Origin: Marinicella litoralis
GTDB lineage: Bacteria; Pseudomonadota; Gammaproteobacteria; Xanthomonadales; Marinicellaceae
DNA length: 64,000 nt
Assembly: GCF_002591915.1 (NCBI RefSeq)
Contig: NZ_NIHB01000002.1
Span: forward strand, 1-64,000
Direction of reading: 5' to 3'
Positions within the stretch are counted from its first letter, which is position 1. Each line of letters starts with the position of its first letter. Under the pieces are notes generated by a model that was not told the DNA's origin, did not search any database, and saw nothing but the letters and a program-made list of their open reading frames with translations. A program made the translations under genes and the position numbers. Shown one piece after another: positions 1,129 to 12,548 of this stretch.

Positions 1129-1221
1129 AATGAGATCTCCTCAATCTTAGTTTAATTGGAAATCTCATCCTTGTCATGGTTCTGTTTTTGGGGGAAAGGT
1201 CAAAAGGTCACCAACTTAAAA

Positions 1222-1348
1222 ACAGTCCAAACCTTTAATTGACCATTTCCTTTGTGAGTTCGGAGGTCAAATCAGTACTTTTTTATGACTAAAACTTCGA
1301 TCAATGTTCGGTTTGCAGTCCTTAAGCGATGCATGTCCTTGATTAGTT
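1222..1348. repeat. MITE-like repeat, copy A (3' half, interrupted by the IS)
   Basis: Downstream of the IS right end the sequence aligns with the 3' half of the complete copy at 1794-2130. It shares GGTCAAaTCAGT followed by a T run, an AAAACTTC block, and the right terminal motif ATGCATGTCCTTGATTAGTT at 1329-1348. The matching 5' half is not present to the right of the IS, so it presumably lies left of the window. Confidence 0.7.
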
Positions 1349-1793: not shown

Positions 1794-2130
1794 AACTAAT
1801 CAAGGACAGGCATCCCTTTCAATTCACGCCCATCAGAGATTTGCTACAGAAAATTTCACCATAACCAATTTAGGACAGGCACCCCAATCCTTGGAATTAA
1901 GCCAACATCAGCTCTTGAATAACACTTTAACCCTCAAAATCTATCCAGCAGAACATGTCTGCAACCGTCCCGCTCAGCTCAAATCGACTAAAACCAACTC
2001 TAATCCACCCTAACCTCTAACTTAATCACTTTCCTGCTGAACACATGGGTCAAGTCAGTGATTTTTTAATCAAAAACTTCACTTAAAAATTAGTTTGTGG
2101 TTTCTAAGTAATGCATGTCCTTGATTAGTT
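1794..2130. repeat. MITE-like element, complete copy B with 20-bp TIRs
   Basis: This non-coding block of about 337 bp begins AACTAATCAAGGACAGGCAT and ends ATGCATGTCCTTGATTAGTT. The two ends are reverse complements with one mismatch in 20. No open frame of note lies inside. Interior segments recur in degenerate form at 12399 and 16391, and the 3' half recurs at 1222. Terminal inverted repeats, small size, lack of coding capacity and several copies per window fit a miniature inverted-repeat transposable element. The parent transposase is not in view. Confidence 0.75.
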
Positions 2131-2201
2131 TAATTTTAATCAAAAACTTCACTTAAAAATTAGTTTGTGGTTTCTAAGTAATGCATGTCCTTGATTAGTT
2201 T
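2064..2201. repeat. Tandem duplication of the MITE 3' end (68 bp, period 70)
   Basis: Bases 2064-2131 and 2134-2201 are identical over 68 bp, including the terminal motif CATGTCCTTGATTAGTT. The second copy abuts the 3' end of the next minus-strand gene. The complete identity indicates a recent local duplication, since other copies of this repeat in the window are clearly diverged. Confidence 0.93.
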
Positions 2202-2205
2202 GTTG

Positions 2206-2865: not shown

Positions 2866-2921
2866 TTTTTTGTTTTTGCTCCGAAGAATCAAAGAATCAG
2901 GGTCAGGCACCACTTTCAATA

Positions 2922-2954
2922 AACTAATCAAGGACAGGCTGACCTTGATTAGTT
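2922..2954. repeat. Paired MITE ends / 12-bp inverted repeat
   Basis: AACTAATCAAGG and CCTTGATTAGTT form a perfect 12-bp inverted repeat around a 9-nt loop (ACAGGCTGA). The left half with ACAGGC matches the left terminal repeat of the element at 1794, and the right half matches its right terminus. It therefore looks like two element ends joined after loss of the interior. It would also fold as a strong hairpin in RNA. Confidence 0.75.
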
Positions 2955-12063: not shown

Positions 12064-12548
12064 TAAACCCTTTAATCAAAGAAATATCAGGCCAACAGAC
12101 CCACACACCATTGAGTTATAAATTTATATTAGCATATCAGAATTCAAAAAACAGATAAAGAAAACCACTTCGTAATTAATCCATTAAAGACAACGAAAAA
12201 TTGAAGTAATCCTTGGAGACCAGCACAACCATCGAGTCATTGGATTTGGAAAAACAAACCTGTGATCATGGTGCCTGCTCTAAAATTTAATATATTAGAG
12301 CCAATTAAAGGAATAAATTTTAAATGACATTGTTCTGAGCCAATTGCTTTATTTTACATGGGAGGGTTGATAGTAACCAATCAAAAAAACCAACCAAGAA
12401 CCAACCAAGGACAGGCACTCCAATCAATAAATTCTTACACGCTCATCAGTGATTTGCCACAGAAATTTCCCTGGCCGATTAGGAGATGATTGGTTGTGAA
12501 TATTCGTCAGATCTTTATTTTCACAGGATATGGTCCAACTGTTTACCT
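12064..12548. other. Intergenic region with a partial dispersed repeat
   Basis: There is no supportable gene in this gap. The half nearest the sigma gene is AT-rich and presumably holds the sigma-kinase promoter, though I could not assign convincing -35/-10 boxes. The other half contains a 5' fragment of the MITE-like repeat. Confidence 0.5.
12399..12480. repeat. MITE-like repeat, copy C (5' fragment)
   Basis: The segment starts AACCAACCAAGGACAGGCAC, a diverged version of the left terminal repeat. It continues with CTCATCAGTGATTTGCCACAGAAATTTC, which parallels CCCATCAGAGATTTGCTACAGAAAATTTC of the complete copy after a variable A/T/C-rich spacer. The 3' half and right terminus are absent before the next gene. 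Confidence 0.6.

Follow-up and report, generated by a model that had tools for sequence, protein, structure and literature searches.

A composite of transposon ends in Marinicella litoralis, very probably derived from an inverted-repeat element with a RAYT-like transposase gene, and the tag sequences repeated outside such ends

What is the 337-bp block at positions 1794-2130 of a Marinicella litoralis contig, and which transposase would act on its ends? The window analyzed here is the whole 64,000-nt stretch that forms the first 64 kb of contig NZ_NIHB01000002.1 (hereafter C12; 856,885 bp) in a genome of 3.35 Mb; C1, C4, and C20 are other contigs of the same genome. An earlier note on this DNA described the block as a single element resembling a miniature inverted-repeat transposable element (MITE), bounded by 20-bp terminal inverted repeats (TIRs) and lacking a source transposase. 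According to the evidence given below, the block is very probably a non-autonomous derivative of a TIR-bounded element ("TIRtron") that encodes a RAYT (REP-associated tyrosine transposase; REP, repetitive extragenic palindrome), and the transposase of intact copies would act in trans on its ends.

The inverted repeats themselves are real. AACTAATCAAGGACAGGCAT stands at 1794-1813 and recurs inverted at 2111-2130 with one mismatch (19 of 20 bases agree), and the pair can be extended to 34 nt at 79% identity. When up to 3 mismatches were allowed, 6 matches to the AACTAATCAAGGACAGGCAT-type end were found in the window against 0.01 expected, and none of 100 shuffles reached six; outside the block, such ends lie at 1329-1348, 2181-2200, 2922-2941, and 12399-12418. 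An extra left end starts within the block, at 1863. Therefore, the 337 bp are two pieces and not one element, as had been supposed. The block is a composite of the left end of another copy (1794-1862) and a 268-bp mini-element (1863-2130), and the latter alone has its own relative elsewhere in the genome. Beyond the right end at 2130, its last 70 bp occur a second time (97% identity over 70 nt; 100% at 2134-2200). The parts of this region are as follows.

1794..1862, forward strand: left end of another copy, the rest of which is missing; corresponds to the initial 62-73 bp of longer or full-length elements.
1863..2130, forward strand: mini-element of 268 bp; its own relative is C12:241193-241459.
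1863..1889, forward strand: left end of the mini-element, 27 bp, with tag AACCAATTTA and core GGACAGGCA.
1890..1922, forward strand: final ten RAYT codons and stop, LGIKPTSALE*, with the deletion joint at 1889/1890; the matches of five genome copies begin at 1890.
1923..2130, forward strand: 3' non-coding tail and inverted right end; together with 1890-1922, 91% identical to C12:260104-260344.
2134..2203, forward strand: duplicate of the right end's final 70 bp.

A full-length transposon with the same ends, carrying a RAYT-like Y1 gene, was found in the same genome. The block gave 24 genome matches; most lie at C12:241-260 kb or C1:1044-1047 kb, and the rest are in the window and on C4. A 16-nt terminus, searched at up to 2 mismatches, gave 34 genome matches against 1 for the pattern read backwards, and in the clusters of the genome these ends flank genes for proteins of about 315 aa. 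The full element at C12:259087-260344 measures 1258 bp and comprises a terminus, approximately 100 bp, the gene, approximately 210 bp, and the inverted terminus. That the source transposase is missing, as previously stated, is true near the block, but the genome contains at least 22 matches to the RAYT gene, of which at least 4 are full-length and free of stops, three of these on the contig of the window. Separately, the broken RAYT genes at C12:242184-243219, C12:255387-256226, and C20:1-936 have their interruptions in much the same places (near residues 174 and 277) and hold other small inserts with the palindrome ATCGTTCCGAACGAT.

The sharpness of the ends was compared using 13 stretches with 400-bp flanks, with results from 5 queries. 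Alignments that included the left end started no more than 13 bases from it, mostly no more than 5, and those that reached the right terminus stopped no more than 3 bases from it, with one pair excepted. Two outcomes named beforehand as grounds for abandoning the idea of an element, namely, matches at this locus only and matches that do not end at the TIRs, did not arise: matches also lie at C12:241-260 kb, on C1, and on C4, and full-length copies aligned from TIR to TIR. Mini-element 1863-2130 consists of the first 27 bp of the element joined at 1889/1890 to its last 241 bp, with approximately 990 bp deleted. The sister copy C12:241193-241459 is 92% identical to it over the first 133 bp (C12:241193-241325), the joint included; as this copy has the same joint but a right-hand tail of the other subtype, the tails were exchanged. 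A third derivative, of 91 bp (C1:506108-506198), has another joint and again keeps ...PALE*. The label MITE-like was apt for a non-autonomous internal-deletion derivative with sharp ends; no DDE element with these ends was found. The block has no coding capacity, as noted earlier, yet it retains ten transposase codons and their stop. In an observation of its own, the 91-bp mini-element (in L237:2515-3153) gives a 212-aa host reading frame its last 14 codons and stop, and the ending of this frame is made from leftover RAYT codons.

The transposase was examined by motif, profile, and fold. The Pfam domain Y1_Tnp scored above its cut-off in all three proteins scanned (24.0-26.5 bits against 23), and the best NCBIfam family was REP-associated tyrosine transposase, below its cut-off (about 42-44 of 80 bits). 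A PDB sequence search with the transposase returned no relative. A structure model was predicted from 27 aligned proteins (mean pLDDT 78.9, pTM 0.80), and the sole PDB match of this model at E<=0.001 in Foldseek was the RAYT 4er8 (E 3.4e-5, 11% identity), with a TM-score of 0.60 by target length and a root-mean-square deviation of 12.1 upon superposition; the IS608 and ISDra2 transposases gave fold matches at E 0.016 and above. In the 27 proteins, W164, E165, Y185, N189, and P190 are invariant. The HUH motif reads NHFH here; N74, H75, and H77 are invariant in the same set, while the third position varies, and some relatives have NHYH. The ten best relatives of the RAYT protein (315 aa) are all from Marinicella and 84-90% identical over the whole length. 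The protein P0002 contains FWES, a W-E motif, and YVDLNP, so that the Y and W-E motifs of TnpA_Y1 subclass 2.3 are both present, and several copies per genome, another trait of that subclass, are found as counted above. By motifs and length, this RAYT-like HUH/Y1 protein appears to fit best with subclass 2.3 of Quentin 2018 (PMC6006769); here and below, what is said of this paper and of Di Nocera 2013 (PMC3733652) refers to the available parts of both.

The same core recurs at the ends of many relatives. Among 80 relative loci, 50 or 58, chosen mainly by flank length, were used for early core counts, and a set of 82 loci (77 with longer flanks) was then defined by rule, requiring a full-length match, enough flank, and distinct upstream DNA. 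In the 58 relatives, which belong to many genera, the exact core GGACAnnCA stood the right way round at 36 left and 32 right ends and the wrong way round at none on either side. In the 82 rule-based loci, the corresponding counts were 56 and 46, with 0 and 1 the wrong way round. Colwellia and its neighbors have GCCACCCAT in place of GGACAnnCA.

Within the window, ends and right-hand tails recur, as had been reported for the block, but the whole block does not. The other features identified are as follows.

1210..1348, forward strand: right-hand tail and right end of another copy, of the second tail subtype; 99% identical to C12:246479-246620; its left part ends at an IS3-family element.
2895..2921, forward strand: degenerate left end, 93% identical to positions 5-31 of element C12:250787.
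2922..2954, forward strand: 33-bp near-palindrome formed by two left termini that meet head to head.
12388..12398, forward strand: 11-nt tag AACCAACCAAG repeated directly outside the next end.
12399..12471, forward strand: solitary left end; nine other copies have left ends that match it at 83-89% identity over 54-83 bp.

The IS3-family insertion sequence occupies 1-1203, at the contig start (NCBIfam IS3 transposase, 238 bits, cut-off 160), and abuts the RAYT-element right-hand tail at 1210-1348 as though inserted into that tail.

A RAYT-like transposase together with the head-to-head end dimer at 2922-2954 would suit REP, REPIN, or BIME sequences, that is, hairpin-forming repeats mobilized by a domesticated RAYT. 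REPINs are hairpin-forming REP pairs without gene remnants, and the present DNA resembles them in being short, non-autonomous, and linked to a RAYT. However, seven end stretches folded no better than shuffles (z -0.74 to +1.27), as did the whole mini-element (z 0.26), and the derivatives contain RAYT codons. Moreover, the dimer was the only one at exact match in 18 genomes, and the end matches in the genome numbered 25, not hundreds, which makes this explanation highly improbable. As the ends fold no better than shuffles, the element is set apart from REPs and from IS200/IS605. Transposases of IS200/IS605 elements (IS608, ISDra2) have a Y---Q motif and a length of about 150 aa, and these elements carry hairpins near their ends. 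The HUH/Y1 chemistry is common to both, whereas the present element, with 315 aa, YVDLNP, inverted termini, and no hairpins, lacks the features of IS200/IS605. The GTAG tetranucleotide that stands at one end of REP repeats was not seen when its printed termini were read. An origin as a MITE of a DDE transposon is close to inconceivable. The inverted repeats without a gene and the IS3-family element adjoining the block would agree with it, but these ends bound an element that carries a Y1 gene, the IS3-family element terminates differently, in TTGACCTTTCCCC, and no duplication was seen in the printed flanks (by eye, without statistics). Consequently, of the two transposase types hinted at in the earlier note, the REP-type direction was right, as the same ends enclose RAYT-like Y1 genes, while the DDE type is rejected. 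Clustered ends had also suggested a cassette array with integron attC sites, and this was dismissed because the same ends enclose RAYT genes.

The end sequence had been assigned to no named family, but the element is built like the TIRtron/TIRYT elements of Di Nocera 2013 (PMC3733652), the nearest named kind. In both, a RAYT-like Y1 gene is bounded by terminal inverted repeats and not by REPs, the ends share a motif (GGGGWSAS in the published elements and GGACAnnCA here, with overlapping sequences) that lies about as far from the gene, and ends also occur as dimers and clusters. As regards GGGGWSAS, some printed ends (e.g., L069, L089) contain GGGGACAG, and the block's own ends read AAGGACAG and AAGGACAT. 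The difference is that most published TIRYTs (20 of 26, according to PMC6006769) belong to subclass 2.1, whereas the present element fits 2.3. Internally deleted derivatives and tag repeats were not found mentioned in the available text of PMC3733652. Subclass 2.3 proteins are described as being about 325 aa long, with YVDLNP and W-E motifs, as encoded in several copies per genome, and as lacking REP hairpins, and their hosts include Alteromonadales (PMC6006769). The length class, both motifs, the multiple copies, the Alteromonadales hosts, and the lack of REP hairpins are shared here, and the hairpin-free ends agree with the published absence of REP-like structures beside subclass 2.3 genes (PMC6006769). 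The inverted ends, the deletion derivatives, and NHFH instead of NHYH are points of difference. The authors of PMC6006769 suggest recent, active spreading of subclass 2.3, but describe it, in common with the rest of class 2, as showing no evidence of mobility. The inverted ends, shared core, sharp boundaries, and deleted derivatives make an element of the subclass 2.3 type a transposon with a testable recognition site.

Outside the core lies a tag of approximately 10 nt that differs from end to end. In Marinicella, this tag is often AACTAATCAA and is common to copies at different places; therefore, it travels with the element. A second copy of the tag, in the same orientation, often stands directly outside the end, for instance, at window 12388, where AACCAACCAAG abuts AACCAACCAAGGACAGG. 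Such repeats were present in 33 of 87 distinct Marinicella-type ends, with none inverted and none in shuffled flanks. Over all loci, a repeat matching at 9 of 10 or more was found at 96 of 325 distinct core sites; three control motifs gave 0/25, 0/49, and 0/43 (0/117). The 96 are not independent, as some belong to a single array or to copies of the same family. At these sites, the repeat agreed with its own tag at 9.70/10 and with the tags of other ends at 4.03/10. The copied stretch ended at position 11 in 42 of them; 58 had 1-5 extra nucleotides, the first being A in 28, and 31 had none. In gene-anchored ends, the repeat stood outside the core in 41 of 132 and inside in 3, with none inverted or shuffled. 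In relatives below 60% identity, it was found in 20 of 83 ends (inside in 2), and an earlier count of 92 ends gave 30 outside, 1 inside, 1 shuffled, and none inverted. Two strains of Pseudoalteromonas shioyasakiensis with a relative at the same place differ in the number of left cores (4 versus 1; 6 versus 2 by a looser pattern); thus, such arrays change between strains. In the open-access literature on TIRtron/TIRYT and TnpA_Y1 2.3, as far as its text was available and with subscription papers outside the scope, no description of tag repeats was met, and they are the part of this system for which none was found. As a separate observation, five tandem right ends, 23-26 bp apart, adjoin the RAYT gene of a proteobacterial metagenome-assembled genome (L081:1527-1625).

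How might these repeats arise? The transposase of intact copies would recognize the core GGACAnnCA (or the wider form GMCABNCAY) at each end and, by analogy with the HUH/Y1 family, would cut the single-stranded ends approximately 10 nt outside it, moving in trans whatever lies between two such ends, mini-elements included. If a cut were not followed by transfer, a polymerase could copy approximately 11 nt, starting at the cut and ending at the bound protein, before the strand was re-joined, and this fill-in and re-joining would leave the end's own tag repeated outside the end. We tentatively regard the tag repeat as a trace of such cutting, fill-in, and re-joining. It is rather doubtful that ends slowly grow a ladder of their private 10-11-nt tag, with TIR-bounded HUH transposases of this subclass marking their own cutting; if true, the rungs would record past enzyme activity at each end, and the cutting position could be read from sequence alone. 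The HUH/Y1 enzyme of IS608 relies on hairpins, and tag repeats would be a concrete handle on the cutting position of a hairpin-free HUH/Y1 enzyme.

Two other processes must be weighed against this origin by cutting and fill-in. Ordinary replication slippage at the ends, independent of the transposase, would yield tandem repeats in place that copy local sequence, as seen here, and the lack of any extra nucleotide in 31 of 96 sites agrees with it; however, slippage would have to account for the empty control motifs, for repeats lying outside the core far more often than inside it, for copied stretches that stop at position 11, and for the 1-5 extra nucleotides at 58 sites, and it seems unlikely. 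Equally unlikely as a general origin are remnants of older copies, left where a new copy had landed in or next to an existing one in the same orientation and homologous recombination then deleted everything else, as short tags would then require the same private tag in the old and the new copy, contrary to the agreement of 9.70/10 against 4.03/10. Longer debris is a different matter: 12 of 47 right-labelled ends are followed by a same-orientation copy starting inside the element (manual count), and two left ends of unlike sequence abut at 1794/1863. Such long remnants are explained by insertion beside or into older copies and later loss by recombination, the process that fits them best, and both processes may act. 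A panhandle model, with pairing between the left and right tags of one and the same element, was also tried and rejected. The agreement in 41 loci was 4.93/10 within a locus and 4.19/10 between loci, and this was reached in 7 of 20000 permutations overall but in 1607 and 1181 of 20000 within two identity classes; as the excess fades within the classes, the model has no support beyond shared ancestry.

Several results weigh against the proposed RAYT transposon or a part of the explanation. No movement was observed, and no base-exact empty site for the Marinicella copies was found in the flanks of five places and the window's own locus across 18 genomes of the genus. One relative's match to the window stops at 12213, short of the end at 12399, and another keeps the large gene ending at 2994 and has other DNA beyond it. 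A viral contig collection yielded no relative. The sole presence/absence case, P. shioyasakiensis versus strain CF6-2, has no recognizable target duplication and concerns a distant relative; its intergenic DNA is only about 77% alike, and thus no exact joint can be drawn. Nor was a target duplication recognized by eye in the printed flanks, with no systematic test made. The right-end alignment of 250787 with 241193 overruns the terminus by 16 bases, into end repeats, and the placement in subclass 2.3 is based on motifs and length, not on the authors' hidden Markov model. In a second set of 13 plasmid and chromid loci, GGACAnnCA fails (left 2/13, right 4/13; wrong way 1 and 2), and tag repeats are rare (2 of 20 ends). 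The wide core GMCABNCAY, selected only after these loci had been viewed, matched 9 left ends, 12 right ends, and both ends in 9 of the 13 (wrong way 1, 2, and 1); in the 82 loci, it matched 74 left ends (wrong way 1), 68 right ends (wrong way 5), and both in 62 (wrong way 0). Finally, no tag repeat lies beyond the left ends of the near-identical copies at C12:242079, 255387, and 259087. Insertion therefore does not always produce the repeat, and the same three copies led to the rejection of a guide model, which holds that the tag selects a target similar to itself.

Several further observations concern the surroundings of the RAYT copies in this genome and its relatives. The solitary ends C1:1307642 and C1:1182841 share AACTAATCArGGACAGTCACTGATTAA, and the DNA on both sides of them is unlike. 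RAYT copies also lie among Rhs-repeat genes, one with a Tox-ART-HYD1 domain, at C12:241-263 kb (L055) and on M. marina scaffold 6 (G003:C20), where the stretch adjoining the RAYT copy matches C12:261574-263069. The RAYT cluster C1:1040760-1046732 (L057) is situated near an integron integrase (TIGR02249, 395 bits, cut-off 265), and two reading frames near this cluster start with the identical MHKCTYNKL. Moreover, 202 bp beside the integrase recur at C1:507717-507918 with 98% identity, 1.5 kb from a mini-element.
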